A DNA stretch of 64,000 bases from Globodera rostochiensis. Lineage: Eukaryota > Nematoda > Chromadorea > Rhabditida > Heteroderidae. The notes beneath the pieces were generated by a model. It saw nothing but the letters and a program-made list of their open reading frames with translations, searched no databases and was not told the origin of the DNA. The stretch is taken from the NCBI GenBank assembly GCA_018350325.1, contig JAEVLN010000003.1:5349758-5413757 (forward strand), read 5' to 3'. The translations under genes were made by a program, and so were the position numbers. Each line of letters begins with the position of its first letter. Position 1 is the first letter of the stretch. This document shows, piece by piece, positions 12,839 to 62,449 of the stretch.

Positions 12839-13218
12839 GTTAGTGCCATGTAAATGTTTTAAACCCTGTTTAAGAATTCGCAAGTAGCCTCAATGCCTTG
12901 CGTATGGAACTTGTGGGTTAGGGTCAGGGATGGACGTGATCGAAAAAAAAAAATCCGTGACCGTTCCGTGATCAAAAAAAATCCGTGACCGTGATCCGTG
13001 ATCACGGACCCCCAAAAACGCCGATTTGGCGTGATCCGTGATACGTGATTTTGAAAAAATAAATAAATAGAGAAAACCCATTTTTTTGAAATTATCTCTT
13101 TTTCTCCGTTGTTTTCTCCTAGTTTATACTGTAAGGATGCCCACTTTAGGTAGAGATATGAATTTTTTAAAATTCATTTTTTTAGTTTTCAAACTTTGTG
13201 GGGGGGGGGGGGGGGGGT

Positions 13219-13241
13219 CGGCAGTGCTGATAGGCACCGCC
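13219..13241. repeat. Degenerate copy of the GC-rich dispersed hairpin
   Basis: CGGCAGTGCTGATAGGCACC follows a run of 17 Gs. It matches the hairpin consensus seen at 13449, 23926 and 63075 with some stem mismatches. It sits inside the hAT-like element. Confidence 0.6.
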
Positions 13242-13448
13242 TTTACACTTCGCGAAATTTAAATTCCCATTTTTATTTCTGGAACGATTTTTGTATGGTC
13301 CAGCCCATCGGAACCGCCGGGGAAAGAATTAAAAAAATTCAATTTAGGAGTGTATTTTCGGGGGGTTTTAATGCATTTTTTTGTTAAGAAATTTTCAAAA
13401 ATAAATTTTTTTGCGAATTCTGCTTAACTTTTGGTGGGGGGGGGGGGT

Positions 13449-13780
13449 CGGCGGTGCCGATAGACGACGCCGAGAAAATTTTGAATTTTTGACTCGATTT
13501 GTGAAGAGATTTTTTAGAAATGCGGTAATTTTTTGAAGCTTTTATGGCGGTAAAAAATGGAAGCTTTAGTGAATAATTAGGAAAATATTCTTAAAATTTG
13601 CAACAAAAAAAATTAACATTTTATAAGGTTTTACACTGGGTGATGTTTTTAAGATCAGTAAAAAGGAGTATCTACTTACCAATTTAAATGAAGAAAATTT
13701 AATTTCACTTGGGGGACTAGAACTCAGGACAATATAGAGTAAGAGACACAGAATTTAGCCACTGCGCCATACGAGCACTG
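13449..13780 (-). mobile_element. tRNA-headed SINE-like repeat with GC hairpin
   Basis: Read on the minus strand it starts with a tRNA-like head near 13780-13711: a box-A-like TATGGCGCAGTGGC and a box-B-like GAGTTCTAGTCC. An A/T-rich body follows, ending in a GC-rich imperfect palindrome at 13449-13472 and then AAGTTAAGCAGAATTCGC. The same order and spacing recur at 55941-56243 and 57652-57932. This suggests one SINE family. The head is too degenerate to be a working tRNA. Confidence 0.6.
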
Positions 13781-13894
13781 TATCCATAAAGTTAACAAAG
13801 TATTAAAGGATTTCTAAATTTGTCATTGTTTTTAAAACTTTCAAGCCCATAATTCTTTATGATTTCTCACCAAAAATTCCATCTTTACCAGTGC

Positions 13895-14003
13895 AAAAAA
13901 GTCTCGTTTTCCGAGACTAAAAACCCGAGAGTCGAGACCGAGACCGAGACCCAAAAAAACCGAGAAATTTCTCGGTTCGAGACCGAGACTCTCGAACAGC
14001 CCT
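13895..14003. repeat. Cluster of CGAGAC/TCTCG motifs
   Basis: About 100 bp dominated by CGAGAC and GTCTCG on both strands. The right end is TCGAACAGCCCTA, the reverse complement of a TAGGGCTGTTCGA-type hAT terminus. It lies within the 1340-bp hAT-like element. No target duplication was found. Confidence 0.4.
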
Positions 14004-14044
14004 AATAGTTACTAACCGAAAAGTCATAAGAATAATCTACATTG

Positions 14045-14112
14045 ACGGGGTTCGAACCCCAACCAAATATGTTCCAATCACCAGCACTTACCACTAAACC
14101 ACAAGCTCACAT
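14045..14112 (-). repeat. tRNA-like head (SINE or tRNA relic)
   Basis: The minus strand reads a box-A-like TGGTTTAGTGGTAAGTGC and a perfect box B, GGTTCGAACCCC, with a short GGGG/CCCC T stem. The anticodon arm is not convincing. It is probably the head of a second, truncated SINE inside the hAT-like element. Confidence 0.5.
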
Positions 14113-14398
14113 GTGAACCTATGGGTCCTAAATCCAATTATTAATCCATACTCCAATACCAATCACGGATCAAAATCACGGATTATTTCAAAAAATCCGT
14201 GACCGTGATCACGGACCCCCAAAAACGCCGTGATTGGTATGATCCGTGATCACGTCCATCCCTGGTTAGGGTCTAAAAATTGTCAGAAATTTTCTTTCAA
14301 TTGAGAAAACTTCCCGATACCGCTCTACCCTAAATGAAACTGAAAATTCTTCCATTTATGGCAGCATTAGTTTTGCTTAGTCCTTTCAAAAAACTCAC

Positions 14399-14443
14399 AT
14401 TTCCTTCAATCGTTTTCTCCACATTCTTCGGATTGTCCGACAT
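14399..14443 (-). pseudogene. Gene-family first-exon fragment
   Basis: The minus strand starts ATGTCGGACAATCCGAAG (MSDNPK) and ends at GAAAT|GTGAGT, as in exon 1 of the locus at 60339-60382. An extra A in GAGAAAACG shifts the frame, so 45 nt replace the 44 nt of the better copy. No following exon 2 is seen downstream toward 14264. The upstream 14460-14760 resembles the upstream region of the 60.4-kb copy, so a promoter-plus-exon-1 segment was duplicated. Confidence 0.7.
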
Positions 14444-14629
14444 TTGTTTTATTGCAAATCCAAATAATTTTTACGATTCCAAATGAGCTAAAAAAAACTG
14501 TGGTTTTCTTCATCACTTTGGATCCCTTGAAAATCCATTTAGTGAAAGCCCGTTCAGTGCATAATCAAACGATAATTAATTTACAAAAACTGGTAAGGAT
14601 TTTCGAAAAACCTAACTCAAACTGAATTA

Positions 14630-14760
14630 TTGTGCGCAAATGTTATGGCCGATGGATCGGTAAGGGCACATACAAAAATCGATAAATGTTTTCGTCTAAC
14701 GAGGCGGCAGAGAAGCAAAAATATTTGGTAAATTTTGTGCATTCAAAGTTGTAACTTGTG
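14630..14760. repeat. Dispersed repeat with CACAAAAATCGATAA core
   Basis: Contains ACAAAAATCGATAAATG with a nearby GACGAGAC-like block. Related copies lie at 55085-55300 and 60547-60690. Two of the three copies sit a few hundred bases upstream of a gene-family first exon, so this may be conserved 5' flank of the family, or a repeat that travelled with it. Confidence 0.45.
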
Positions 14761-14764
14761 ATTT

Positions 14765-15205
14765 TTAGATGGGGTGCGTTGATGTCCAAATTGCTCTCGC
14801 CGCCTGACTCTCTTTAAAGCACACTATTTCTTCAAACAAAAAAATTTTCATTTTCATTGATTTTGGCCAATTTTATGGGCTGTAACTTTGCTCAAAATGG
14901 TGAGCGGCGCCCAATTTTTGCATATTCGTACTCAGCTCGATGAGGGGAATCGATTGATATAAAATTTAGGCAAATTTGCGTCTGTTGAAAAAATTTTATT
15001 TTTTTAGTTTATATCAGATATTTTTAATTTATTTTAATAAAGTTTTTGTTTTCTTTTTCCCTCGAATTCGCTAGAAATGTGCCCCCCCCCCCCGTGATTG
15101 ATTTAGTTTAATTTCTTGAACATTTTATTTTTTGAAGAAATAGTGTGCTAAAAGAGAGAGTCAGGCGGCGAGAGTAATTTGGACATGAACGCACCCCATC
15201 TAAAA
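14765..15205. repeat. Head-to-head inverted pair of sat3-like monomers
   Basis: A sat3 monomer on the plus strand (14768-14850: GATGGGGTGCGTTGATGTCC then CTCTCGCC) faces a minus-strand monomer (15121-15205, ending GAACGCACCCCATC). The spacer includes GAGCGGCGCCCAATTTTTGC. Symmetric outer ends (TTTTTAGATGGGG and CCCCATCTAAAAA) look like terminal inverted repeats of a small transposon. Confidence 0.6.
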
Positions 15206-15370
15206 ATTGTTTTAGTTTATTTCTGAAAATTTTATTTTTTGAAGAAATAGTGTGCTAAAAAGAGAGAGGCAGACGGCGAGAGTAATTTGGACATCAGCGC
15301 ACCCCATCTAAAAATTGTTTTAGTTTAATTTCCTGCAGATTTTATTTTTTGAAGAAATAGTGCGGATTTT
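15206..15370 (-). repeat. Additional minus-strand sat3-like monomers
   Basis: One complete and one partial monomer in the same orientation as 15121-15205, each with GAAATAGTG and CGCACCCCATC. They form a minimal tandem outside the main array. Confidence 0.6.
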
Positions 15371-15389
15371 TTAAATTTATTTGATTTTG

Positions 15390-15693
15390 TTTTCTTTTTT
15401 CCCTCGAATTCGCTAGAAATCCCCCCGTGATTTTAAGAATCAAATCCTAAAATAAAGGCATCAAATTTTTCAGTCATCGAAAATGTAAAAATTGGAAGAG
15501 AATTGATGCTCAATGCGGAAGAAGAATGTGCGGACAGTGAAGAGAGCAGCAGTCGCCGAGTGGAAGAAAAGAGAGTGGGCTGAGTGAAGAACTATTGCAT
15601 ATTAGGTGCTGGAATCAGACCCAAAAATGCACGCACAGCATCCAACATTTGCTTGACCAAAACATTCATTCTCCCCACAGCGCTTCTTTCTTC
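15390..15693 (+). promoter_or_regulatory. Conserved upstream region of SL1 RNA gene
   Basis: The roughly 300 bp before the SL1 gene closely match, inverted, the region 63665-63960 before the second SL1 gene. Shared blocks include CTCGAATTCGCTAGAAAT, AGAGAGCAGCAGTCGCCGAG and CATTCTCCCCACAGCGCTT. A conserved flank ending at the SL1 start would hold its promoter. I cannot identify individual elements such as the PSE with confidence. Confidence 0.55.
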
Positions 15694-15793
15694 GGTTTAA
15701 TTACCCAAGTTTGAGGTACTTGGTGTATCCTGCCCAAAATATCTGTAGCATGGAATAAATTTTGGAACTGCGCGGTCCTCAACTGGGCGGTGC
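15694..15793 (+). ncRNA. SL1 spliced-leader RNA gene
   Basis: The SL1 RNA donates its 5' 22 nt to pre-mRNAs by trans-splicing in nematodes. The leader at 15694-15715 begins GGTTTAATTACCCAAG and ends TTTGAG, the canonical nematode SL1. A GT donor follows at 15716. An Sm-binding site, AATTTTGG in the context ATAAATTTTGGAAC, lies near 15758 as in Caenorhabditis. The 3' end can form a hairpin (GCGCGGTCC, loop TCAACT, GGGCGGTGC, one mismatch). The length of about 100 nt fits the family. Downstream is a disrupted spacer and the 3' half of a 5S gene in the same orientation. Nothing in the RNA itself looks broken. The 3' end is approximate. Confidence 0.92.
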
Positions 15794-15799
15794 TTAAAT

Positions 15800-16507
15800 T
15801 TGTCTTGAAAAGATGTGTGTTTACGAGTTAGCACTAAAAAGTTGGAATTTTGCAGGGATTGTTTCGGACAAATTCGACAAATTGTAGCAATTTTTTACAT
15901 ACTTTCAATTTTTGAGGTGGTGCGAAGCTTTTGTTGCGGCCCTTTAAAGCAAAAAAAAACAAAAAATGACAAAATAATCTGGATAATTTATTTTGTCATA
16001 AATGCAAGTAAATTTAATAGACTCATGTTTGGACTAGTCGTCACACTGATCAAAATTTTCCTGCGAGTCGGTATTGTACCGCCCGCGAACGCGTGATTAA
16101 GCTGAAAGTCTCGACCAGATTTTTCAATGCTAAATCATTGTTTATATATTTTTTGGCTCGTGGCCTAGTCGAAACGCCCCGTGTCGGGTTGTTGAGCGGC
16201 GCCCAATTTTTGCATATTCGTACTCAACTCGATGAGGAGAATCGATTGATAAAAAATTTAAGCAAATTTGCGTCTGTCGAAAAAATTTTATTTTTTTAAT
16301 TTATATCGGATATTTTTAATTTATTTTAATAAAGTTTTTGTTTTCTTTTTTCCCTCGAATTCGCTAGAAATGATTTTGTTTTTTGAACATTTGTCTTGAA
16401 AAGATGTTTGTTTACGAGATAGCACAAAAAGTTGGAATTTTGCAGGGGTTGTTTCGGCCAAATTCGACAAATTGGAGCAATTTTTTACATACATTCAATT
16501 TTTGAGG
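15800..16507. repeat. Interrupted SL1-5S spacer with direct duplication
   Basis: A spacer segment (TTGTCTTGAAAAGATGT to ACATTCAATTTTTGAG, about 118 bp) occurs twice, at 15800-15917 and about 16390-16507. Between them lies about 470 bp including a second copy of the block GAGCGGCGCCCAATTTTTGC to AATAAAGTTTTTG (16190-16350, compare 14905-15060). The second SL1 locus has only one spacer copy. This looks like partial tandem duplication or recombination between SL1-5S units. Confidence 0.65.
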
Positions 16508-16545
16508 AAAATTTACAGAAAGTTATTCTTGACAATTTGTCCAAT

Positions 16546-16610
16546 AAGCAACGTTGGGCCTCCTTTGTACTTGGAACGGAGACGTCCTGGTAATCGGCGG
16601 TGTTGTAGGC
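16546..16610 (+). pseudogene. 5S rRNA 3' half (pseudogene)
   Basis: AAGCAACGTTGGGCC to GGTGTTGTAGGC matches the 3' 65 nt of the intact 5S gene at 63202-63319, with a few differences such as TCCTTTGTACTTGG for ACCTTAGTACTTGG. The 5' half and the adjacent spacer are deleted. A CAGGGATGG element end follows almost immediately. It cannot give a functional rRNA. Confidence 0.85.
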
Positions 16611-16612
16611 AT

Positions 16613-16700
16613 CAGGGATGGTCGGAATTCCGAGTTCCGATTTCCGTAATTTTAAGCAAAAAGTCGGAAATTTTCGGAAAAATTTGAGACATTTTTCGAC
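16613..16700. mobile_element. Single hAT-like terminus with TTCCGA motifs
   Basis: Starts CAGGGATGGTCGGAATTCC directly after the 5S fragment and continues with repeated TTCCGA/TCGGAA motifs. It resembles the termini of the proven elements. No opposite end or target duplication was found, so it is likely truncated. Confidence 0.4.
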
Positions 16701-16710
16701 GAGACTGTTT

Positions 16711-17034
16711 GATTAAAGAATGGGGGTCCTGAATTTTATATGGTCTAACAATTTGCATCCGGGGAGGGGGGTTTCGGGGAGTGATGATTACGAATCTGAC
16801 ATCAGATTTTGTCAAATCATTGATTTTGTTTAAAATATTCCATTAAAAATGGGGGCACCAGCTTTACTATTACCAAAAATCAAGTGCTTATTTGTTTATG
16901 GAAACTTAGACAGAATCAATGATTTGACAAAATCTGATGTCAGATTCGTAATCAGCACCCCTCAAACCCCCCCCCCCCCCGGATGCAAATTGTTAGACCA
17001 GATAAAATTCAGGACCCCCATTCTTTAGGATTAC
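16711..17034. mobile_element. Foldback (long inverted repeat) element
   Basis: Two arms of about 120 bp face each other: 16711-16830 (AAAGAATGGGGGTCCTGAAT to CAATGATTTTG) and 16911-17034 (the reverse complement). They are separated by about 80 bp. Arms match almost perfectly except in a poly-G/poly-C stretch. A transcript would form a long hairpin. No coding capacity is seen; it is a MITE-type foldback. Confidence 0.8.
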
Positions 17035-17184
17035 CACGGGAAGTTTCTCGATTAATAGAAAATTTCGGACAATTTTCGAAGGTTTTCACGCCCTTCCCGC
17101 ATTAACGAGAGAATTTAAACTTTTTTAACCCGAACTTTCTTTTGAAGAAAAGAAAAAAGAATTTCGATTAAGATAGCAAAATAC

Positions 17185-17885: not shown

Positions 17886-18062
17886 GTCGAGATCGAGCTT
17901 CTTTCGAGCGAGACTCGAGACGAGATTCTCGAAAAAATCTCGGATCTCGAAAAATCTCGAAAATTCAGTTTTATTTGAAACGAGATGTCGAGACAAGATT
18001 TCTCGAGAATCTCGTGAGATTTTCGAGATTTCGAGACGAGATCTCGTCTCGACCGGTCTCTA
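17880..18062. mobile_element. hAT-like remnant with CTCGAGA motifs inside pseudogene A
   Basis: About 180 bp of palindromic TCTCGA/CTCGAGA motifs end at GACCGGTCTCTA, the reverse complement of TAGAGACCGGTCGAGACGAG. This matches the termini of the 881-bp element at 23607-24487. The left terminus is missing. It interrupts exon 4 of the pseudogene. Confidence 0.6.
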
Positions 18063-18179
18063 CTTAAATTACGGAGCTAAAAACTCCGATATGCAAGCTT
18101 TATACAAAGATGCATCATCAAAACTATTTTCGGATTGACCGTTTGAGGAATTTTGATGATTTTAAATGAGGAAAAATAG

Positions 18180-20799: not shown

Positions 20800-21480
20800 C
20801 AAATTTTAATCTAAATGTCTTAACATTTTAACTTGAAGTGAACACGGCACGGGCTCGACGGGCAATTGTCGGAACAAACTATATCACGAAATATGTAAGG
20901 GAATATGAAAAAAATTCAGCTGGCAGGGTTCGGGTCGAGGTGTGTATGCGTATAGTTGTTTTACACAAATAACGACAATTACTATTGCTTCGATTTAATG
21001 GGAAATCTCGAAATATGGCTATAAAATATGGATGAAAAAATTTTCAAATATAGCAAAAAATGGCAAGATTTCCTAATAGAAGTAATAAAAGAGATAAAAA
21101 TTTTTATATGCAAATTAAAGGCATTTCAGAGAAAATTTGTGAAAATGTGCGAAAAAAATTGTTATTTTTTTGCCGCGAATAGGTCAATTTTTTAGGCGTG
21201 CATTTTTTGATAACTTTGAAAAAGTCGATCCTTAGGTATGTGTTTTTCGTTTTTTGTATTTTTGTTAAGGAATTTTTGGAAAATGGCAACATATGGATAA
21301 AAATATGGAATATGGATAAAAATCGCAAATATGGAAAAATATGGATTATAAAATGAGCTCTAAAAGCTCCAACCAAAGTTAAAAACACTATTTATGGCAT
21401 TTATACGCTGTTCCGAGTCGCTTAACAAATTACAAGAAAAGTATGGCCCGAAAAACTGGAAATTAAATGTTGTGCTCTTC
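20800..21480. other. AT-rich stretch with ATATGG repeats, no gene seen
   Basis: Contains scattered ATATGGATAAAAATATGG-type motifs (about 21000-21350) resembling subterminal clusters of the mobile elements. I see no coding or RNA gene. Confidence 0.5.
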
Positions 21481-21484
21481 TAAC

Positions 21485-21722
21485 TAGAGACCGGTAAAAT
21501 AAAATTTCCGGGAACGAGAACGGGAATTTCAAATCTAACGGGAACGGACCGTGTCTAGGTTTATATGAGAGCCTAAAAAAATGTTGCTTAATAAAAAGTT
21601 TTATAAAAAATTTTTCAAAAATTTTGACTAGCCTACCTTACATACCGGGTGCCCAACCGTGAGCGAGCGCCCAAACGTACCCAATCGCACTCAATCGTCC
21701 CGGTTCGGAACTGTTCCCTCTA
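21485..21722. mobile_element. Possible hAT-like element with GGGAACGAG motifs
   Basis: The left end reads TAGAGACCGGTAAAATAAAA and the right end's reverse complement reads TAGAGGGAACAGTTCC. Both fit the TAGAG start of neighbouring elements, with GGAACGGG motifs at the ends. The flanking 8 bp do not match, so the boundaries are uncertain. Confidence 0.35.
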
Positions 21723-22848: not shown

Positions 22849-23087
22849 ACCCAACTCGCTACCTGTTAACTCGCTACACCCCAACCTCGCTACTTTGTCC
22901 CGACTCGCTACCCCTTTTTACTTGTTCAAAAACCGTTTAAGACATTTTTTACAATTAAAAATGCATGTATTTCTCATCTACTCGATGAGACAAAACGAAC
23001 GGTACCATTTTTAGGCCCGAGTAACAACCATGAGCTGAGTTATAGAGATTTAAAAAAGTAGCGAGTTGGCAGGTAGCGAGTCAGGGT
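22849..23087. mobile_element. Short inverted-repeat element with ACTCGCTACC motifs
   Basis: Left ACTCGCTACCTG, two bases, AACTCGCTAC faces its exact reverse complement at 23058-23081. The outer bases extend as ACCC/GGGT. The motif ACTCGCTAC is repeated near the left end. About 240 bp, non-coding. A related TCGTTACC cluster lies at 62550-62630. Confidence 0.55.
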
Positions 23088-23606: not shown

Positions 23607-24487
23607 TAGAGCCCGGTCGAGACGAGATCTCGTCTCGAAATCTCGAAAAATCTCGACGAGATTCTCGAGAAATCTCGTCTCGACATCTCGTCTCGAATAA
23701 AACTGAATTTTCGAGATTTTTCGAGATCCGAGATTTTTTCGAGAATCTCGTCTCGAGTCTCGCTCGAAAGAAGCTCGAGATTCTCGATCTCGACTCCAAA
23801 ATGTTTCATGAAAACAGTCCTTTTTTAAACAAAGATTGCCAATTTTTGTAAAAAATTCCCCCGGCGGCGCCTGTCGGCACCGCCGGACATACTCCCTTTT
23901 GGCTGCAAATCTCTCAAACTGTTCTCGGCGGCGCCTATCGGCACCGCCGAACCTCCTCTCACTCCCAGAGTGAATAAAAATTCTCAAAAAATTTTGAAAA
24001 ATTTATTAAAAAATGTTAAAAAATTCTAGCAATTTTCTGACCGGCTCTTTCATACCACACTATGGGTCAAGCCCAGAGGCGAAACGCCAAAATTTAAGCA
24101 ATTTCTCTACTGAAACAAAAAAATAGCTATGCGGCAGACAGCATATGGTCAGACACTATATCTCCTCACCATTGAATTGTTTGATTTTCAAAACCTTGGA
24201 ACACAGGCTAACACTTATATGTCGTGACCAAATTTTGCAGACATGCTTCTAGTGCTCCCTTTTTACCCGTACAAAATTTGGTGGAGTTTCTGAGAATTTT
24301 GGAAAAAAAATTATATTTCTCGAGTCTCGACTGTTCCGGCTCGAGATTTTTCGAGATCCGAGATTTTTCGAGAATCTCGTCTCGACATCTCGTCTCGACT
24401 AAAATGAGCTTCACGAGATTTTTCGAGATCCGAGATTTTTTCGAGATCTCGTCTCGAGTCTCGCTCGAAGCTCAAGTCCGGGCTCTA
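23607..24487. mobile_element. hAT-like non-autonomous element, 881 bp
   Basis: Ends are TAGAGCCCGG on both sides in inverted orientation, with subterminal arrays of TCTCGA/CGAGATCTCG motifs. An exact 8-bp target duplication, TTTGTTAT, lies at 23599-23606 and 24488-24495. The interior holds two GC-rich hairpins (23862-23886, 23926-23949) and A/T-rich DNA with no transposase. The unoccupied paralogue at 21850-22020 has one TTTGTTAT, which independently supports the insertion boundaries. Confidence 0.9.
23862..23949. repeat. Two GC-rich dispersed hairpins
   Basis: CGGCGGCGCCTGTCGGCACC at 23862 and CGGCGGCGCCTATCGGCACC at 23926, each completed by GCCG. Both fold as a 10-bp stem with a 4-nt loop. 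They lie inside the 881-bp hAT-like element. Confidence 0.75.
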
Positions 24488-26514: not shown

Positions 26515-29500
26515 GATACCATGCTGTGGATTGTTGTTGAAATCCTGGACAACCAATGCGAATCACAATCATCAGGCAACTCATGCATCAGTCCGTCGAG
26601 CTCAAATGAATACTAACGGCTCGACAAAGGTGTTAGACCTGAGCGTTCTTGGGGCCGTCAAATTATTCCATTTTGTACGAACCCTTATGCGTCCAGCTCC
26701 CTGACAATATTATTTTCCCCAAACGCCTTGCAAAAACATCGCTACTAACGGCTCGACCAGAGTTTTAGACCTGAGAGTTCTTGGGGCCGTCAAATTATTC
26801 CATTTTGTACGAACCCTTATGCGTGCAGCTCCCTGACAATATTATTTTCCCCAAACGCCTTGCAAAAACATCGCTACTAACGGCCGATTTGAGTGTTAGA
26901 CCTGAGAATCGGGTTTCAGCGGGTGTCTAGGATATTTTAGAGGAGTTAAAATTTGAATTTTTATTTGCTTGGGTATTCATCGATCGATCAACCATTCTAT
27001 GAGAAAAAATACACCAAAACTTGGGTTTCTAAATTGAAAGATATAATCGGGTTTCAGCGGGTGTCTAGGATATTTAAGAGGAGTTAAAATTTGAATTTTT
27101 ATTTGCTTGGGTATTCATCGAGCGATCAACCATTCTATGAGAAAAAATAAATCAAAACTTGGGTTTCTAAATTGAAAGATATAATCGGGTTTCAGCGGGT
27201 GTCTAGGATATTTTAGAGGAGTTAAAATTTGAATTTTTATTTGCGTGGGTATTCATCGATCGATCAACCATTCTATGAGAAAAAATACACCAAGAATTGG
27301 GTTGGAAAGATATAATCGGGGGGTTTCAGCGGGTGTCTAGGATATTTTAGGAGTTAAAATTTGAATTTTTATTTGCTAGGGTATTCATCGATCGATCAAC
27401 CATTCTATGAGAAAAAATACACCAAAAATTGGGTTTCTAAATTGAAAGATATAATCGGTTTCAGCGGGCGTCTAGGATATTTAAGAGGAGTTAAAATTTT
27501 AATTTTTATTTGCTTGGGTATTCATCGATCGATCAACCATTCTATGAGAACAAGAATTGGGTTTCTAAATTGAAAGATATAATCGGGTTTCAGCGGGTGT
27601 CTAGGATATTTTAGAGGAGTTAAAATTTGAATTTGTATTTGCTTGGGTATTCATCGATCGATCAACCATTCTATGAGAAAAAATACACCAAAAATTGGGT
27701 TTCTAAATTGAAAGATATAATCGGTTTCAGCGGGCGTCTAGGATATTTAAGAGGAGTTAAAATTTGAATTTTTATTTGCTTGGGTATTCATCGAGCGATC
27801 AACCATTCTATGAGAAAAAATAAATCAAAACTTGGGTTTCTAAATTGAAAGATATAATCGGGTTTCAGCGGGTGTCTAGGATATTTTAGAGGAGTTAAAA
27901 TTTGAATTTTTATTTGCTTGGGTATTCATCGATCGATCAACCATTCTATGAGAAAAAATACAACAAGAATTGGGTTTCTAAATACCATGCTGTGGATTGT
28001 TGTTGAAATCCTGGACAACCAATGCGAATCACAATCATCAGGCAACTCATGCATCAGTCCGTCGAGCTCAAATGAATACTAACGGCTCGACAAAGGTGTT
28101 AGACCTGAGCGTTCTTGGGGCCGTCAAATTATTCCATTTTGTACGAACCCTTATGCGTGCAGCTCCTTGACAATATTATTTTCCCCAAACGCCTTGTAAA
28201 AACATCGCTACTAACGGCTCGACCAGGGTTTTAGACCTGAGAGTTCTTGGGACCGTCAAATTATTCCATTTTGTACGAACCCTTATGCGTGCAGCTCCTT
28301 GACAATATTATTTTCCCCAAACGCCTTGTAAAAACATCGCTACTAACGGCTCGACCAGGGTTTTAGACCTGAGCGTTCTTGGGGCCGTCAAATTATTCCA
28401 TTTTGTACGAACCCTTATGCGTGCAGCTCCTTGACAATATTATTTTCCCCAAACGCCTTGTAAAAACATCGCTACTAACGGCTCGACCAGGGTTTTAGAC
28501 CTGAGCGTTCTTGGGGCCGTCAAATTATTCCATTTTGTACGAACCCTTATGCGTGCAGCTCCTTGACAATATTATTTTCCCCAAACGCCTTGTAAAAACA
28601 TCGCTACTAACGGCTCGACCAGGGTTTTAGACCTGAGAGTTCTTGGGGCCGTCAAATTATTCCATTTTGTACGAACCCTTATGCGTGCAGCTCCCTGACA
28701 ATATTATTTTCCTCAAACGCCTTGCAAAAACATCGCTACTAACGGCTCGACCAGAGTTTTAGACCTGAGAGTTCTTGGGGCCGTCAAATTATTCCATTTT
28801 GTACGAACCCTTATGCGTGCAGCTCCCTGACAATATTATTTTCCCCAAACGCCTTGCAAAAACATCGCTACTAACGGCCGATTTGAGTGTTAGACCTGAG
28901 AATCGGGTTTCAGCGGGTGTCTAGGATATTTTAGAGGAGTTAAAATTTGAATTTTTATTTGCTTGGGTATTCATCGATCGATCAACCATTCTATGAGAAA
29001 AAATACACCAAAACTTGGGTTTCTAAATTGAAAGATATAATCGGGTTTCAGCGGGTGTCTAGGATATTTTAGAGGAGTTAAAATTTGAATTTTTATTTGC
29101 TTGGGTATTCATCGATCGATCAACCATTCTATGAGAAAAAATACACCAAAACTTGGGTTTCTAAATTGAAAGATATAATCGGGTTTCAGCGGGTGTCTAG
29201 GATATTTAAGAGGAGTTAAAATTTGAATTTTTATTTGCTTGGGTATTCATCGAGCGATCAACCATTCTATGAGAAAAAATAAATCAAAACTTGGGTTTCT
29301 AAATTGAAAGATATAATCGGGTTTCAGCGGGTGTCTAGGATATTTTAGAGGAGTTAAAATTTGAATTTTTATTTGCGTGGGTATTCATCGATCGATCAAC
29401 CATTCTATGAGAAAAAATACACCAAGAATTGGGTTGGAAAGATATAATCGGGGGGTTTCAGCGGGTGTCTAGGATATTTTAGGAGTTAAAATTTGAATTT

Positions 29501-31428
29501 TTATTTGCTTGGGTATTCATCGATCGATCAACCATTCTATGAGAAAAAATACAACAAGAATTGGGTTTCTAAATACCATGCTGTGGATTGTTGTTGAAAT
29601 CCTGGACAACCAATGCGAATCACAATCATCAGGCAACTCATGCATCAGTCCGTCGAGCTCAAATGAATACTAACGGCTCGACAAAGGTGTTAGACCTGAG
29701 CGTTCTTGGGGCCGTCAAATTATTCCATTTTGTACGAACCCTTATGCGTGCAGCTCCTTGACAATATTATTTTCCCCAAACGCCTTGTAAAAACATCGCT
29801 ACTAACGGCTCGACCAGGGTTTTAGACCTGAGAGTTCTTGGGACCGTCAAATTATTCCATTTTGTACGAACCCTTATGCGTGCAGCTCCTTGACAATATT
29901 ATTTTCCCCAAACGCCTTGTAAAAACATCGCTACTAACGGCTCGACCAGGGTTTTAGACCTGAGCGTTCTTGGGGCCGTCAAATTATTCCATTTTGTACG
30001 AACCCTTATGCGTGCAGCTCCTTGACAATATTATTTTCCCCAAACGCCTTGTAAAAACATCGCTACTAACGGCTCGACCAGGGTTTTAGACCTGAGAGTT
30101 CTTGGGGCCGTCAAATTATTCCATTTTGTACGAACCCTTATGCGTGCAGCTCCCTGACAATATTATTTTCCTCAAACGCCTTGCAAAAACATCGCTACTA
30201 ACGGCTCGACCAGAGTTTTAGACCTGAGAGTTCTTGGGGCCGTCAAATTATTCCATTTTGTACGAACCCTTATGCGTGCAGCTCCCTGACAATATTATTT
30301 TCCCCAAACGCCTTGCAAAAACATCGCTACTAACGGCCGATTTGAGTGTTAGACCTGAGAATCGGGTTTCAGCGGGTGTCTAGGATATTTTAGAGGAGTT
30401 AAAATTTGAATTTTTATTTGCTTGGGTATTCATCGATCGATCAACCATTCTATGAGAAAAAATACACCAAAACTTGGGTTTCTAAATTGAAAGATATAAT
30501 CGGGTTTCAGCGGGTGTCTAGGATATTTTAGAGGAGTTAAAATTTGAATTTTTATTTGCTTGGGTATTCATCGATCGATCAACCATTCTATGAGAAAAAA
30601 TACACCAAAACTTGGGTTTCTAAATTGAAAGATATAATCGGGTTTCAGCGGGTGTCTAGGATATTTAAGAGGAGTTAAAATTTGAATTTTTATTTGCTTG
30701 GGTATTCATCGAGCGATCAACCATTCTATGAGAAAAAATAAATCAAAACTTGGGTTTCTAAATTGAAAGATATAATCGGGTTTCAGCGGGTGTCTAGGAT
30801 ATTTTAGAGGAGTTAAAATTTGAATTTTTATTTGCGTGGGTATTCATCGATCGATCAACCATTCTATGAGAAAAAATACACCAAGAATTGGGTTGGAAAG
30901 ATATAATCGGGGGGTTTCAGCGGGTGTCTAGGATATTTTAGGAGTTAAAATTTGAATTTTTATTTGCTAGGGTATTCATCGATCGATCAACCATTCTATG
31001 AGAAAAAATACACCAAAAATTGGGTTTCTAAATTGAAAGATATAATCGGTTTCAGCGGGCGTCTAGGATATTTAAGAGGAGTTAAAATTTTAATTTTTAT
31101 TTGCTTGGGTATTCATCGATCGATCAACCATTCTATGAGAACAAGAATTGGGTTTCTAAATTGAAAGATATAATCGGGTTTCAGCGGGTGTCTAGGATAT
31201 TTAAGAGGAGTTAAAATTTGAATTTTTATTTGCTTGGGTATTCATCGAGCGATCAACCATTCTATGAGAAAAAATAAATCAAAACTTGGGTTTCTAAATT
31301 GAAAGATATAATCGGGTTTCAGCGGGTGTCTAGGATATTTTAGAGGAGTTAAAATTTGAATTTTTATTTGCTTGGGTATTCATCGATCGATCAACCATTC
31401 TATGAGAAAAAATACAACAAGAATTAGA
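26515..31428. repeat. Higher-order array of two alternating satellites (A ~138 bp, B ~132 bp)
   Basis: Three higher-order units start at about 26515, 27984 and 29573. Each has a ~100-bp leader (ATGCTGTGGATTGTTGTTG onward). Next come B monomers (GACCTGAGCGTTCTTGG, CAAATTATTCCATTTTG), then A monomers (TTCATCGATCGATCAACC, TCGGGTTTCAGCGGG). Copies of B are 3, 7 and 6; of A are 8, 5 and 8. Long identical stretches between units (27361-27573 equals 30952-31164) point to recent duplication. The B-to-A switch always has the same junction (GGCCGATTTGAGTGTTAGAC), so the mixed unit was copied whole. The leader contains a 31-codon open frame but no coding evidence. Confidence 0.93.
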
Positions 31429-52556: not shown

Positions 52557-52641
52557 GAGGTTTTCAGTTTATGACCAGTGTTTCCTGTTCCAACTTTTTC
52601 CTGTTCTGTGCCAAGATTTCCAAAATCAAGTTCAATAACTA

Positions 52642-52740
52642 GGTGGTGCTTAAACCGTCAGTTTTGGTACCCGATTTTCGGTTAACCGGGATTTTGAAGA
52701 CCCGGTTTTCATAACCGTTTAACCGGTAATGACCAACCCC
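52642..52740. mobile_element. Possible 99-bp hAT-like MITE
   Basis: Flanked by ATAACTA on both sides (52635-52641, 52741-52747). Ends GGTGGTGCTTAAACCG and the inverted GGGGTTGGTCATTACCGG share only a loose match. The interior is rich in GGTTAACCGG-type motifs, like the other hAT-like termini. Confidence 0.45.
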
Positions 52741-52749
52741 ATAACTAAG

Positions 52750-55300: not shown

Positions 55301-55590
55301 ATAAATACAAGTGCAAGTCCCGCCACTACCGTCCCTGTTGAAAAAGAGATTCGGGGGCGTAGAATCCAAATTTGTTCTCCGTTTCGACAAATTCCGAACC
55401 CCGTTTCTGATGATTTCACTAAAATATCACTTTCCCACTGAATCACCCACCCACCCCCAATAATTCCTTCCATTCACTGATCGATTGGACAGACCGCCGG
55501 GGAATCGCGGCGTTTGGTTGTGTGGGCAGTCCGCCGCCGTTCATTCATTTCATTTCTATTCAAAGTTGCCCCCGAATAATGATTTTTAAT

Positions 55591-55745
55591 TAGGGTTGAG
55601 CGGGACCGGAACTTTTGGGAAAAACCGGGACCGGGACTTCCCGGGACCAGAAAAACCGGGACCGGGACTTACCGGGACCAGAAAAACCGGGACCGGGACC
55701 AAGATTTTCAACCGGGACCGGGACTAACCGGGACTTTTCAAGGGA
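55591..55745. mobile_element. hAT-like left terminus with GGGACCGGGAC motifs
   Basis: Starts TAGGGTTGAGCGGGACCGG, then ACCGGGACCGGGACTT repeated about seven times. No matching right end with a target duplication was found. Confidence 0.45.
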
Positions 55746-55940
55746 AATTTTTTTTTTGTAATGTTCAATGGTAAAACAAAAATTTTTTTTGTTATTCAAA
55801 ATATTTTCCTCATTGTCTTTAACTTCAATTTTATCATCATCATTCTTTTTTTTTTGAGATTCTGCTTTACTTTTAGGGAGGGTGGGGTTGCTTCGGAATT
55901 TCAGAGAAAAAAACTGGTTTAAGTAAGAATGGAGGATGTC

Positions 55941-56243
55941 CGGCGGTGCCAACAGGCGCCGCCGGAGAAATTTTACAAAAATTGGCAATCTTTGTTAAGG
56001 AAATTGAAGCAAAAATTCAAAGACGTGATGAATTTATTTCAAAAATTCTTGTATATATTCTTTTTTGCGCGCATTTTTAATTAAAATATTAGAATATTTA
56101 TTTAAAAAATCCTATTAATGAGGGAATGCCTATATTTGAGTAGAGGGGAAAAAAACCAATAAATAAGTACTTGCACTCAACCGGGTTCGAACCCAACACA
56201 TAAAATAAGACTCACCAAAAAGAGAAACCACTAGGCCATCGGA
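55941..56243 (-). mobile_element. tRNA-headed SINE-like repeat with GC hairpin
   Basis: Minus strand: tRNA-like head near 56243-56171 (GATGGCCTAGTGGTTTCTC as box A, GGGTTCGAACCC as box B), A/T-rich body, then the GC palindrome at 55941-55965 (CGGCGGTGCC, AACA loop, GGCGCCGCCG). The foldback element 56247-56627 borders the head. Confidence 0.62.
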
Positions 56244-56246
56244 GTA

Positions 56247-56627: not shown

Positions 56628-56696
56628 CGAGGCCATCGACCTATTTGGAAGAGATAAATAAAAATGGTTGAAATTCTCGCTCGATGATGCCATCAT

Positions 56697-56800
56697 TAGG
56701 GGTGTAAATTTAGTCCCGGTCCCGGCGGGACCAAAAAACCGGGACCGGGACTTTCAGTTTTCAAAAAGTCCCGACCGGGACCGGGATCCGAATCTGAACT
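56697..56800. mobile_element. hAT-like left terminus with CCCGGTCCCGG motifs
   Basis: Starts TAGGGGTGTAAATTTAGTCC, then GGGACCGGGACTTT repeats. The right end is not identifiable. Confidence 0.4.
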
Positions 56801-57141: not shown

Positions 57142-57186
57142 ATGTCGGACAAATCCGAAGAAAGTCGAGAAACGGCTGAAGGAAAT
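57142..57186 (+). pseudogene. Gene-family first-exon fragment
   Basis: ATGTCGGACAAATCCGAAG, with one extra A compared with the family start, then GAAACGGCTGAAGGAAAT. The donor is mutated (ATGAGT instead of GTGAGT). A hAT-like end (CAGGGGTGC) begins 12 bp downstream. Confidence 0.7.
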
Positions 57187-57198
57187 ATGAGTTTTTTA

Positions 57199-58120
57199 CA
57201 GGGGTGCTCACGGTTAACAATTTTCGTAACCGTAACCGCCCGTCCTCAAACACTCGTAACCGTTAACCGCCCGTAACCGCCCGTCCTCAAAATTTCATAA
57301 CCGTTAACCGCCCGTCCTCAAAATCTCATAACCGTTAACCGCCCGCGGTTATCCGCGGTTAACCGCATTATTTAAAATCAATAAAGTTTTCCAGATTTCG
57401 AAAAATCGATATCTCAAAACTAATTTTTTCCGATCGTGATGTGGCGTCTTTTTAAAATTAAATCAAAATTGATGTGTATTGAACTTAACAAGTGATTTTT
57501 ATCAGATTTTGTCAATGAATAAAATTTTTAAATCTCTTTCTAACACTTTCATGATTAAAATCTAACAAAGCGCGACCGATCAGAGTAATATTTTCTGTTT
57601 TTTGCGCATTAGTTTCCTAAAATATTTTTAAGAGAAGAGGGAGTGGGGGTTCGGCGGTCGATAGGCGCCGCCGAGGGAAAAAAAAAAATCGAATATCTAA
57701 CGCCTTATGCTGAGAAATCGTCCAAATTTTAGGTAATTGATTTCTAAAATGCACTAATTATTTATGTAAATACTGAATTTTACTTTTTATATATAAAATT
57801 TTTGCAAAAAATTGAAAGAATACTAAAAAGACGATATTAAAATATAAATAAAAATAATTACAGCGGAAGGGGCTAGAACCTAGACCAAATAATCAGTCTA
57901 AGAGTTCACCACTGAGCCACTGGACAGATAGGTGCGTTTGGTGAAATGAATAAAGAAGAAATTTGAAGTCAAATCGTCTCAATCCTTAGAATTCAAAACA
58001 ACGGATGCGACGGTTAACCGCGGTTTTAGTGGTCATAACCGTTAACCGACCGTAACCGCGATGCTTTAAAATTCCATAACCGTTAACCGTCCGTAACCGC
58101 CAGCCTCATATCTCATCCCC
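57199..58120. mobile_element. Probable hAT-like element with TAACCGTTAACCG motifs
   Basis: The left end is CAGGGGTGCTCACGGTTAAC. Both ends are dense in CCGTTAACCGCCCG motifs (57210-57370 and 58010-58110). The right boundary is degenerate (CTCATCCCCGG) and the flanking 8 bp do not match. It contains a SINE-like repeat (57652-57932). Confidence 0.5.
57652..57932 (-). mobile_element. tRNA-headed SINE-like repeat with GC hairpin
   Basis: Minus strand: head near 57932-57865 (AGTGGCTCAGTGGTGAACTC as box A, AGGTTCTAGCCCC as box B), an A/T body, and the GC palindrome at 57652-57673 with a shortened left arm. It lies inside the 57.2-58.1 kb hAT-like element. Confidence 0.6.
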
Positions 58121-58169
58121 GGAGGGTATTCTGCAAAAAATAACATTAAGAACCCTAGGGTGTTCTATC

Positions 58170-58307
58170 TAGTGTTCGGCAAATGAGGTTTTTTGGTGAA
58201 AAAATCCCGAAATTTCTTCGGTCGGTATACCGAATCGGTAATACCGAAAAAAATACCCCGGTAATACCGAAAATTACCGCGGTAATACCGTACCGTGCCG
58301 AACACTA
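58170..58307. mobile_element. 138-bp hAT-like MITE
   Basis: 12-bp terminal inverted repeats TAGTGTTCGGCA are flanked by GTTCTATC (58162-58169) and GTTCTATG (58308-58315), an 8-bp duplication with one mismatch. Inside are repeated GGTAATACCG palindromes. Too short to encode protein. Confidence 0.82.
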
Positions 58308-58439
58308 GTTCTATGCACCCACCAAATTTATTCCGAAATGCCACGGCACCTGAAAATGCAAGCACTTATATATTTATTGTTTCCTCTGCACATTCTCTTC
58401 CCCAAAATAATAAAATAAATCTTCAAATATTTCCGGTAA

Positions 58440-58534
58440 AATTATAAATTATGCGAGAGGGAATTTTAAAAAGAACGGGAACGGGACTCCCGCACTTTCC
58501 CCACGGGAAACACCACGTTCCCGCCGACCTCTAA
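58440..58534. mobile_element. hAT-like right terminus with GGAACGGGA motifs
   Basis: Ends GTTCCCGCCGACCTCTA; its reverse complement begins TAGAGGTCGGCGGGAACG. It lies 3' of the gene-family locus. The left end is unclear. Confidence 0.35.
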
Positions 58535-58597
58535 TTTTGATAACATAAATGAGGAAAAATAGTTAGAAGAATTCGCATTTGGATAATAAAACATTTA

Positions 58598-60382
58598 TTT
58601 ATTCACGACGCCCCATCTCCGATACATATCAATCCGATAAATGTTTATTCCATTTGGAATTTTGCATCCAATTCCGTTTCGTCCTCCTCCTCATTCATGA
58701 AGTCAAAGCCTGTGTGAAATAATCAGTTCAGTGGAGGAGGAATTATTCTGATCCCCCCATTTTGCCCTTACCCGTCGCCGATGTCCCCGTCTTTGAAGTC
58801 AATTTGGATGAGATTCCGCTGACGATTCCAATCCCATTTAGCTGCCTCCTTTTCCCAATTAGCCCATTTCGCTTCGTCGCGCTCAATTGGACAACGAACC
58901 AAAAGCCAATTGTCTCTATTAAAGCGCCGCAAGTTCAATCGCTCCCCCGTCAAATTCTTCTTCAGTTCGAATGGCACAATGTCCGCAGAAGGATAATCCC
59001 AAAGACAGATGATAAAATTGACCGGATCAATTGAATTGCCAAATTCCTTGAAAGGAATTTAAAACAGTGTCCAATAAAACAAAATCAAAATCACCATTTT
59101 CAGTGGCTCCATTTTTTTCGAATGAACAAAGCATTTCAACACCTTCGGAAGTCCATCGCCGCGGGGCGTGTGCAACCATTTGGCCAATGCTTGGCCAGAA
59201 GAAGCGCCGGCACTGTCAGCGGCCGGAAACGCGGGAAAAAGATATTCGGATTTGATCATTCGGAGTTTTGGGCAATCACCGAGAACGGTCGGAGAGAATT
59301 GACGCAAACGGTCGAGTTTGGAGGGAAACAAGTAATATCCACAAATGTTGTCACGGATCAAAGGCCAAATTCGGTGCCAAATGATTTGCCAACTGCGGTG
59401 TTGGTTGCCGGGTGTTCCAATCCAAAGATTGGAGTCTTTGTGGCGAATGCTTTTGAGAAATTCGAGGACACTTTGGTCGATGTAACTAAAAATAAGAAAT
59501 AAAACATTTGTGAAAAAATTTTGATGGGTTTTCAAATAATTTTAAACCGACAATAGAATAACCGTTCTATTTTAATGTCTGAAATAAATTTTTGACCTTA
59601 TTTCAAGGCCTTTGAATCCGATCACTTTGTCGAAAAACGGCTCTTGTAGAATTGGCAGCCGACGCTCGACTTTACTGCCAATGAATTTGATAATTTTAGC
59701 GCCATTTCCGATAGCTGCACGACGAATTTCCAACCGACCCCCCAGACCATTCCTTCGAATTGAAATGCGCGTCCACCAAAAGTCAAATCGATCGCTGATC
59801 AACAACTTTCAATCCCAGCACAAAAGGGCCACAAAATTTGAAGACTTCGAACAAAAGATCCACAAATGGGACTGAAAATCGGGGGTTAAATGAGGCAAAT
59901 AAACAATTTCCCGTGATAAAATTGGTCAAAAAAGAGCAACATTTTCTCATTAACGCGGAAAAGGCGTGAAACCCTTCAGAAAATTTTCTATTAATCGAGG
60001 AAACTTCCCGTCCGACCTAAATTAAACTGAAAATTCGGTAATCTTAAAGAATGGGTTTCGAATTCATTTTTAAAGTCGTTAGAAAATAGTTTCTAATGCT
60101 CTTTACTGAGACTAGAATCCGAATCTAACTCCATTTTCCCAAGTTCGAACCTTGGACCTGAATTTTTTGAAAAATGGATTTTCTAAATTTTACCAATAAA
60201 ATATTGAAAAGGTGGTTCCCGGGTTTTCTAATGCGTAGATAGGTTAACCCTAAAAAACGAGCATTTGAAATTTTAAAAGTCCAAAATTTTTTTTTAATTT
60301 TCCGTCGTCCATTTGCTTATTCCCTTCAAAAAACTCACATTTCCTTCAATTGTTTCTCCACTTCATTCGGATTGTCCGACAT
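58598..60382 (-). pseudogene. Best-preserved gene-family locus B (five-exon model, exon 2 frameshifted)
   Basis: Exon 1 is 60382-60339 (MSDNPNEVEKQLKEM), ending GAAAT|GTGAGT. Exon 2 spans about 59864-59602: [16 protein letters not shown], then small indels against pseudogene A (two bases lost before DQRSI, one lost after DRFDF, one gained at WSG). Intact RLPILQEPFFDKVIGFKGLE follows. Exon 3, 59485-59095, is a clean 391 nt: [70 protein letters not shown]. Exon 4, 59046-58772: [28 protein letters not shown], ending DIGDG. The last exon starts at 58709; the obvious acceptor gives an early stop, while an acidic frame (FMNEEEDETEL) runs to TAA at 58645, with AATAAA at 58603. The N-terminus is F-box-like by recollection of similar cyst-nematode proteins. 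The function, if any, would be in ubiquitin-ligase substrate recruitment, which is inference. The indels indicate a recent pseudogene, or assembly errors in a live gene. Confidence 0.72.
59886..60338 (-). other. Long first intron of locus B
   Basis: Non-coding sequence between exon 1 (GTGAGT donor at 60338) and the exon 2 acceptor near 59865 (GATTTTCAG). Related sequence containing AAGTTTCTCGATTAATAGAA also precedes exon 2 in pseudogene A (about 17040-17180). No other gene seen. Confidence 0.5.
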
Positions 60383-60546
60383 TTGTTTTTTGTTTTTGCA
60401 AATGCGAAATGATTTTTATGATTCAAATGAGCTAAAAACTGAAAAATGTAATTTTTTTAAACATATAAAAATTAGTACATAATAAAAATCGAATTCTGGG
60501 CCAGGGGTGGACGAAATTCATTTAGTTTTTGTCCTAAAATTCGTAA

Positions 60547-60690
60547 CACCCTACTTGTAAATAAATAATGGGACAAATGGCAACCGTGAGGCGAAGAAAA
60601 AGTCTATTCGAATGTTGTGAAGCAAATGTGGGGGAGGGAGTTGGATCGGTTAGGGTAGACACAAAAATCGATAACAGTTAATCGGTCGCC
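60547..60690. repeat. Dispersed repeat upstream of locus B
   Basis: CCTACTTGTAAATAAATAATG to GGTAGACACAAAAATCGATA; closely matches 55085-55300. It lies 165-310 bp upstream of the exon 1 ATG and could hold promoter sequence. Confidence 0.55.
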
Positions 60691-60844
60691 TGTGTTGATT
60701 TGAGACGGTGTCCGGACATTTGGCACATTGGACATTTGGCACATAGTGAAAAAACGGACGTTTCGCACACATTCAATAAAAAGTATTTTACATAGATGAA
60801 TAAATACAAAACAAACTCAAAAAACACAATGCCAACCCATTTTG

Positions 60845-61643
60845 GCCAACATTCTTTTTGCGAATTCTTACTCAGCTCGACGAGAGGAAGTCGCTGAAGA
60901 GCACGGTCGACCACTGCTGGGGTGTATGATTGACATAGGATCTCGCAAAATCCAACCGAGCCAGTCTGTTTTTTTTTGACAGTAGCGGTTTGTAGGCTGG
61001 TCTGTGGGCAAACAATTGAGCACTGTTCAATAGTCGTCGACCCGTCCTTGTGCTAATGGATTTGTCAAATTTGGTGGCGACACAATTGACCAAGTCGGTG
61101 GCACTTTTGGTTGGATCGAGCTGAATTTCCCGAAGTGCGATCCGCTCTTCCTTAATTGACAATTTTTTTGGACGTCCACTTCTTGACTTTCGGTGCAGAT
61201 CATCCGGCTCTGTAGCGCTTGTAAATGTCCGATACGGCTCGATGACTCACTCCAAATTGTGCAGCAACAGCCCTATCTGTTTGACCATTTTTTTTTGCCT
61301 CCACAATGTCTTTTTTTGGGAGTAGGAATGTGATTTTTCTATGGAATATCTGAGACTAAAAACTTATGGTAAAAGGAGTTGATGAGAATGGTGCATATGC
61401 TTAGAAATAAAGCGTTGAACTTTTTGGGCATATACTTTTGTCCACCCAATTTTTGAGCAGGTTGAGTTCAATGGGGGCAAACAAATCGGAGAGTGCTTGA
61501 AGCGCAGTGGGCTCATTTTGAAGCTAGCAAATGGCGCTAAATTTAATCACTAACAATTGGCTGGCTTCAACAGCTTTAAAAGCTGCTATGACAATTTTCA
61601 TATCCAAATATGTTTTGGGCATATACTTATGTCCGATACTGTA
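60845..61643 (-). mobile_element. Truncated Tc1/mariner element with transposase N-terminal fragment
   Basis: The minus strand begins TACAGTATCGGACATAAG at 61643, next to TA, the usual Tc1 insertion site. A direct copy of TTGGGCATATACTT-GTCC recurs about 190 bp inward (61613-61635 and 61422-61446), the IR/DR arrangement of Tc1-like elements. A transposase fragment follows with frameshifts: a helix-turn-helix (DRAVAAQFGVSHRAVSDIYK), then RSGRPKKLSIKEERIALREI, SISTRTGRRLL and FARSYVNHTPQQWSTVLFSD. The frame stops at the first catalytic Asp of the DDE triad. The remaining catalytic half and the other terminus are missing, so the element is dead. Confidence 0.87.
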
Positions 61644-61750
61644 TATATCAATGTGATACAACGAGTTGAATCAGAAAAAAACGAGTTGATTAAAAAACGT
61701 GTGATTTCGTCCAACCAAAAAAAGAAATGAAAAACGTATATTGTCATCGT

Positions 61751-62441
61751 TAGGGATCGGACCGATATGCACCAAAAATGGCCAAATATGCGCATATATA
61801 TATGCACCAAAAAAAGGCCAAAATATGCACCAAAATATGCCAAAAATGCCGAAATATGCACCAAAAATGCCGAAATATGCATCGAAAAATGGCACTTTTA
61901 GTTCACTATTTTGCTTAATACTTAATTTTTTCATCTTTTAACGTCTGATAAGTAGGTTTAAAGCCTTTTCGCATATTATTTTAGTATTTTTGGAAAGTTG
62001 AACAAATTGAGAAAAATTTTAACTGTCATCAGGCCAATTCATCGCCGGCTGGCGATCTCCGCGCCAGCCACTAGCGCTGCGCCATTTCAGCGCCGCGATT
62101 TTTCCCCTTATTTTATGAAAATGTTCAATTTCAAGCATTTTTTTCAAAAATGACTAAACCTTATTGTTAAAAATATGAATTATTTTTCAAACAGCCAGAA
62201 ATCCATGATTTTGGGTTCATTTTATCAAATTTTGAAAAAATGCTAATATGCTCGAAATATGCAAAATATGCCATATGCAAAATATGTAAAAAATATGCAC
62301 GAACCCCCAAAATATGAAAAATATGTTTTTTTAAACTTGACCAAAAAAGCTCAAACCAACGCGAAAAGGCTATTTTTAAGCCGTATTCTTCAAAGCATAT
62401 GAGAAAACAAAATATGCAAAATGCATATAATCCGTTCCCTA
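61751..62441. mobile_element. 691-bp hAT-like non-autonomous element
   Basis: Ends TAGGGATCGGACCGATATGC and, inverted, TAGGGAACGGATTATATGC. An exact 8-bp target duplication, GTCATCGT, lies at 61743-61750 and 62442-62449. Both subterminal regions are packed with ATATGCACCAAAAAT and AAATATGCA motifs. A GC-rich segment (GCCGGCTGGCGATCTCCGC) lies in the middle. No transposase. Confidence 0.88.
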
Positions 62442-62449
62442 GTCATCGT

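Follow-up and report, generated by a model that had tools for sequence, protein, structure and literature searches.

We analysed a 64,000-nucleotide stretch of the Globodera rostochiensis genome (hereafter the window; contig JAEVLN010000003.1, forward-strand positions 5,349,758 to 5,413,757, with window positions below counted from its first letter) in which short motifs are packed into many clusters. Four elements with inverted ends and flanking 8-bp duplications lie among these clusters, each with its own packed motif, which we call its word. We consider it highly probable that the clusters are the ends of elements from many hAT (Ac-like) cut-and-paste families, including non-coding derivatives shortened by internal deletion, with the word of each family as a putative site for its transposase.

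Four elements and their genomic copies

Element 1 (12925..14264; no strand is assigned to any of the four) is a non-coding, hAT-like element with 17-bp perfect inverted ends CAGGGATGGACGTGATC, an 8-bp duplication GTTAGGGT on each side (12917-12924 and 14265-14272) and CCGTGATCACGG-type units packed at its ends. Element 2 (23607..24487) has tips TAGAGCCCGG, the duplication TTTGTTAT and TCTCGAGA units at both ends. Element 3 (58170..58307) has perfect 12-bp inverted ends TAGTGTTCGGCA and GGTAATACCG units; its duplication in the window (GTTCTATC/GTTCTATG) carries one mismatch and is exact in two near-identical genomic copies (L013 and L014). Element 4 (61751..62441) has tips starting TAGGGA, the duplication GTCATCGT and ATATGC units at both ends. 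An earlier note on this sequence had placed the four elements here with inverted ends and 8-bp duplications, and re-reading the window confirms all of them.

When the non-satellite part of the window is scanned for paired YAG ends flanked by an 8-bp duplication (at most one mismatch), the four elements are returned, along with one AT-rich pair that looks like chance. The same scan on six dinucleotide shuffles returns 0, 0, 0, 1, 1 and 1 pairs with no exact duplication, compared with three exact ones in the window. The note's further claim, that a different short motif is packed into the ends of each element, holds as well: the top 6-mer exceeds the maximum over 300 shuffles in every case, with ATCACG found 15 times in the ends of element 1 (shuffle maximum 6), TCGAGA 24 times in element 2 (maximum 19, mean 9.9), TACCGA 5 times in element 3 (maximum 4) and ATATGC 14 times in element 4 (maximum 8).

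Across the genome we find at least 44 matching pieces for the left end of element 1 and at least 114, 64 and 41 for elements 2, 3 and 4, respectively. The element 1 tip occurs at 37 places, 14 of which make up seven inward-facing pairs less than 2 kb apart (the window pair included); its ends and duplication were read in the window copy alone. For the other three elements, the check that the note had proposed, reading tips and 8-bp duplications in copies collected genome-wide, gives consistent results and not the inconsistent ends that it had named as counter-evidence. The duplication is exact in 18 of 20 copies of element 2 (one has a single mismatch and one has no duplication; the sample is 20 of the 22 full-length places, and L090 duplicates the window insertion), in 24 of 30 loci of element 3 (three with one mismatch, one without duplication and two whose partner end is missing from the stretch read; the window copy and duplicates L011-L014 are counted), and in 18 of 19 end-to-end copies of element 4 (11 of 30 loci were dropped as truncated matches, and the 19 include the window copy and the duplicates L041/L042 and L047/L048).

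The duplications also have a common form. When those of elements 2, 3 and 4 are made unique within each family, 44 of the 57 distinct sequences have T at position 2 together with A at position 7 (nTnnnnAn, the target form of the Ac group), where 5.7 are expected, and 3 of the 57 have the Buster-type form nnnTAnnn. The form for element 4 (61751-62441 and copies L041-L068) is stricter than that of elements 2 and 3, namely nTnATnAn, with A4 and T5 in all 16 distinct duplications, T2 in 13 of 16 and A7 in 12 of 16.

Contig C8 carries collinear copies of all four elements, 95-100% identical and at near-constant offset (window 12925-62441 corresponds to about C8:1317270-1367208), and elements 1, 2 and 3 are found again on C23 near 5.02-5.14 Mb. 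Because of these collinear copies, the window seems to belong either to a large duplication or to a haplotype that was left uncollapsed.

hAT transposases and the words at their ends

A profile search of the genome with PF05699, the hAT C-terminal dimerisation domain, gives at least 100 matches (150 of 156 candidates scored). We read about 3 kb around domain matches at 18 loci (L001-L008 and L091-L100), and at nine of them, in six motif families, the domain lies between matching tips that are flanked by an exact 8-bp duplication; L005, with one good tip, one poor tip and no duplication, is outside the nine. Short terminal inverted repeats starting with YAG are found in all nine coding elements and in all four window elements. 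L008 and L091 combine element 2 tips with TCTCGAGA arrays (the end of element 2 is 96% identical to L091 over 78 bp), L004, L006 and L007 combine element 3 tips with CGGTAA/TACCG arrays, and L001 has an element 2 tip, yet AACGGGA arrays. Three more coding families are seen in L094 (TAGAGACCGACC, CCTGGACC), L096 (CAGGGATGG, TTCGGAATTCCGA) and L100 (CAGGGCTGCGTCGAAA, TTTCGAAA). The note had suggested a search for autonomous hAT transposases with matching termini; hAT-coding elements of this kind exist for elements 2 (L008, L091) and 3 (L004, L006, L007), and among the matches listed none could be tied to elements 1 and 4. One candidate dimerisation domain lies roughly 5.5 kb away from a tip of element 4 type (C67:2513750 and C67:2519280), and two longer copies of element 4 have their facing tips 2.24 kb apart (C34:1914443-1916684 and C67:3397512-3399754). 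The PF14372 model, used as a route to a transposase for element 1 or 4, gave two weak matches with no tie to either.

Twenty further loci, read over the roughly 430 bp after the domain, add the types CTCGGTCTCG, CGGATATCCG, GGGGATCCCC, AACCGGTT, GGGCTCGAG, ACCGGGA and GCCCGCCCGG; L118 and L119 have weak arrays, and a clear array plus tip is missing from L101, L115 and L120. A packed 6-mer (at least five times within 250 bp) is present in 35 of 39 stretches 3' of a domain, which hold several copies per family and are not independent, compared with 31 of 120 control flanks. This contrast is conservative because many of the clusters in the control flanks are hAT-type words themselves. A count of tips after arrays (C.CT[AG] within 75 bp, 31 of 35) was dropped: the pattern is short, it had no control, and L003 and L101 look spurious. 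Against the G. rostochiensis proteins in UniRef, the transposase domains match at 100% over 70 residues (P0068/L121) and 53 residues (P0093/L127), and some Globodera pallida proteins match transposase domains at 93-96%.

BED fingers accompany some of these domains. Among the matches listed, 21 of 45 BED fingers have a dimerisation-domain match at most 5 kb downstream on the same strand, compared with 1 of 45 in the reversed/upstream control. BED-like fingers are readable for five motif families, CGGTAATACCG (L004, L005), AACGGGA (P0014), TTTTGGG (L097), TTCGGAA (P0059, P0075; the copy in L096 is broken) and TTTCGAAA (L100, P0072), and a partial one for the TCTCGAGA family (L091). The helix regions of the fingers are similar within motif families and different between them, although five families are too few to test a recognition code. 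A CxxH, an RW and, near the C terminus, an SE..F stretch are hallmarks of hAT transposases. The one protein checked for them, P0014 (from G. rostochiensis and matching L002), has CAAH at 206, RW at 257 and SEQLF at 513.

In a tree built from 79 columns of 30 dimerisation domains, 29 of them distinct, the 18 motif labels change 17 times, which is the minimum, and each label falls in one clade; the five-letter tip class changes nine times. L122 and L130 have the CGGATATCCG word in common and differ in their tips, and L121 and L125 have related words and again different tips. The tip TAGAG[AC]CCGG precedes AACGGGA, TCTCGAGA and TTTTGGG words, and the tip TAGAGACCGACC precedes CCTGGACC. Because TAGAG[AC]CCGG is common to families with different motifs, tip and inner motif appear to evolve separately. 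A matrix of words against element ends is mostly diagonal, with two exceptions. L006, whose array is CGGTAA/TACCGA, has no copy of the word selected for that family and contains CTCGGT twice, and AACCGG is also found in L104 and L112, three times in each. The top word holds CGG or CCG in 11 of 16 families (background 0.116), by a hand tally made after the words had been seen that leaves out L097, L101, L114, L115 and L118-L120 as having a weak array or none; of these, L115 would count for the pattern and L101 and L119 against it.

Other clusters in the window and a change of word

Beyond the four elements we read 13 further clusters. The note had counted at least eight beside a TAGGG/CAGGG/TAGAG-type end, and eight of the 13 do adjoin a YAGRG-type end (13997-14004, 16613, 18062, 21485, 55591, 56697, 57199 and 58533); the other five have no clear one, among them the TATCCGG cluster that it had included, which terminates TAGGATTGG at 12838, and the clusters at about 21000-21350, 22853-23083, 52640-52745 and 57990-58110. 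The ATATGG cluster at about 21000-21350 was considered as a relative of element 4 and rejected, as there is no such alignment.

Six of the eight tipped clusters align to the ends of hAT-coding elements. Inside element 1 lies a CTCGGTCTCG-type solo end on the plus strand (13926..14004, terminus CAGCCCTA; the other clusters have no strand assigned), which over 13926-13991 matches L102 (91% over 58 bp) and L108 (84% over 67 bp). A solo end with tip CAGGGATGG and TCGGAATTCCGA units (16613..16680, right edge approximate) matches L096 at 16620-16649 (93% over 30 bp), and an element 2-type solo end with TCTCGAGA units and terminus CCGGTCTCTA (17886..18062, left edge approximate) matches L091 (98% over 58 bp) and L008 (81% over 112 bp) at 17903-18014. 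An AACGGGA-type end with tip TAGAGACCGG (21485..21557) aligns over 21478-21547 to L001 (87% over 70 bp) and L099, an ACCGGGA-type end with tip TAGGGTTGAGC (55591..55843) aligns over 55584-55843 to L112 (72% over 294 bp), and a CGGTTA-type end with tip CAGGGGTGCTCACGGTTA (57199..57520) is homologous over its length to the CGGATA-type hAT end L116. The remaining two are recognised by motif and tip: a CCGGGAC cluster with tip TAGGGGTGTAAATTTAG (56697..56790, right edge approximate), where a 47-bp match to L112 lies inside the motif, and an AACGGGA cluster with terminus CCGACCTCTA (58400..58533, left edge approximate). When the window, with satellites masked, was searched for hAT coding remnants, neither the dimerisation domains nor a set of longer proteins used as queries found any. 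Satellites were rejected as a complete explanation of the clusters.

The end at 57199-57520, which has at least 40 matching places in the genome at 89% identity or more (40 of 392 candidates scored), looks like one whose putative recognition word was altered site by site. It is 71% identical to the 3' end of L116 over 336 bp; L116 has 15 CGGATA units and no CGGTTA, and the window end has 1 CGGATA and 13 CGGTTA. Opposite the 15 units of L116 it reads 12 CGGTTA, 1 CGGATA and 2 gaps. The fourth base of the unit differs in 12 of 13 units, compared with 1 difference in 71 at the five remaining bases of the unit and 70 in 231 outside the units, for one sequence per family and with aligners that favour the pairing of units. 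A second aligner gives 11 clean CGGATA/CGGTTA switches, one unchanged unit and three gapped ones, and the unit nearest the tip is changed as well. Homogenisation may have helped this change, because part of the array is tandem. We lean towards the view that the genome preserves in-place switches of a putative transposase recognition word, which, given about 18 word types on clades of one transposase superfamily and several of them behind a common tip, would make it a natural series in which a BED-finger code and the order of change (whether finger or sites came first) could be read.

Several other features lie in and around the elements. A GGCGGTGCCGAYAGGCGCCGCC-like hairpin recurs in or beside a number of them (23863-23950, 55942 and others), and the hAT elements L100 and L108 appear to be inserted into such a hairpin. 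Stretches resembling transfer RNA (tRNA) were seen by eye in element interiors at 13700-13780, 14045-14110, 56180-56245 and 57860-57925, with a B-box-like GGTTCGAACC or similar; tRNA tools made no call at these four. A tandem array of 20 kb, made up of about 189 copies of a 109-bp unit, occupies 31426-51812, and long tandem arrays are also found at 1-9095 and 26611-31425. A 5S ribosomal RNA gene lies on the minus strand at 63201-63319, and some 320 bp from it, at 63643, is an SL1 leader sequence, a neighbourhood known from other nematodes. The sequence searched, which we take to be the nematode SL1 leader, has two copies in the window and 122 in the whole genome of 92.6 Mb, compared with none in the reversed control.

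Proposed mechanism, alternatives and significance

Behind the short YAGRG-type tip of an element comes an array, some 50-250 bp long, of a single word that is particular to the family and often contains a CGG core, and the insertion is flanked by 8-bp duplications that follow nTnnnnAn. In the mechanism that we propose, the word would be the site for the N-terminal BED zinc finger of the transposase. Multiple sites could let the enzyme recognise the ends of its own family cooperatively, and the tip would be read by the catalytic part and stay similar between families. Finger and sites changing jointly would separate families, and a private word may keep a transposase on its own ends and on its own deleted derivatives. 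That the clusters are hAT ends is supported by the copies with consistent tips and duplications and by the coding elements with the same tips and motifs. The picture drawn in the earlier note, of many hAT families that diversified their motif on one architecture, is essentially correct and of a kind already known. Motif types follow transposase clades.

A number of observations weigh against this picture. Four of the 39 stretches 3' of a domain have no packed word, L101, L115 and L119 have a word without a clear hAT tip, and, among the matches listed, 24 of 45 BED fingers have no dimerisation domain within 5 kb. The motif labels and tips on the tree were set by eye and 14 of its 26 inner branches are poorly resolved; since the labels are by eye and most rows with the same label are close copies, informative cases are few. 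The subterminal palindromes that the note had put forward are clear in some families and do not appear to be a general rule, with 8-bp palindromes exceeding shuffles in only six of 22 rows (L008, L098, L100, L104, L112 and L116, where at most 4 of 100 shuffles match or exceed the observed count); the corresponding number of shuffles is 9 of 100 for element 1 and 92 of 100 for the ends of element 2 itself. Finally, among the matches listed, no PF05699 domain lies within 6 kb of any of the 37 element 1 tips, and no transposase could be matched by eye to the tips of element 4.

These last two results would be expected if some elements, notably 1 and 4, belonged to another superfamily with 8-bp duplications and were merely hAT-like, and the private target form nTnATnAn of element 4 points the same way. 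We think this unlikely, as the tip CAGGGATGG of element 1 is also that of the hAT-coding L096, and element 4 has 8-bp duplications with the T2 and A7 counted above, is laid out like the others and has the candidate dimerisation domain near one tip of its type. Alternatively, the arrays could be tandem repeats under slippage and gene conversion, whose words have no binding role and whose family differences are neutral. Some of them are tandem in part (periods 31 and 41 at 57227-57345, 31 at 55619-55699 and 28 at 12946-13004), one base change could spread through an array by homogenisation, and the comparison at 57199 is of one sequence per family. Yet the words stand in both orientations and at both element ends, the five other unit positions in the comparison with L116 are nearly unchanged (1 of 71, against 70 of 231 outside the units), units beyond the tandem part were altered too, the tip-proximal one included, and word type tracks transposase clade, which together make slippage and conversion a quite improbable account of the words. 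It is more improbable by far that the words are kept for a host DNA-binding protein, perhaps a hAT-derived one, and not for the transposase: such proteins with diverse words are described from other hosts (PMC8097297), but the words here are confined to element ends, are absent from the middles and track the transposase clade.

Reading the clusters as hAT ends with family-specific words places them beside several known systems. The terminal 200 bp of maize Ac/Ds hold many copies of AAACGG that the transposase binds cooperatively, next to short tips, and non-coding deletion derivatives with filler DNA occur (PMC3260210); 8-bp duplications are general in hAT elements (PMC3942097). The nematode elements resemble Ac/Ds in the short tips, the many copies of one short word, the deletion derivatives, the filler DNA and the 8-bp duplications, whereas Ac/Ds has one word in one family and the nematode genome has about 18 word types on related transposases, some behind a common tip. 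In Hermes, subterminal repeats are bound by BED zinc fingers and two repeats form a quasi-palindrome (PMC10368747), but the sites are few, precisely spaced and bound mainly at one end, unlike the dense arrays at both ends seen here. CGGBPs and related hAT proteins bind diverse words, usually with CGG and sometimes AT-rich, and for four of four hAT-encoded proteins these words match the protein's own subterminal regions (PMC8097297); that work used binding arrays across many hosts, whereas our words were read from element ends in one genome. Kat1, a domesticated hAT of yeast with a hexamer repeated between its tips and a BED domain important for specific binding (PMC4763223), differs in being a single domesticated locus. 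hAT elements have been reported in plant-parasitic nematodes in a text whose available part does not contain the word 'subterminal' (PMC11118728), and among the open-access titles listed we found none that deals with family-specific end motifs of nematode hAT elements.

Because of the work on Ac, Hermes, Kat1 and CGGBPs, the principle of subterminal-word recognition is already known. The contribution of the present case lies in how many words a single genome holds, in tips and words that vary separately, and in one clear example of a word altered in place. For the annotation of the G. rostochiensis genome it gives a rule: where a short-motif cluster adjoins a YAGRG tip, it probably marks the end of a hAT element. 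Many seemingly unrelated clusters are accounted for in this way. Ordinary as the case is in kind, it offers a clear natural series of a transposon altering the word that its enzyme appears to read. Here many families lie at different distances from one another in one genome, with tip and word evolving separately, and finger and word can therefore be compared pair by pair.

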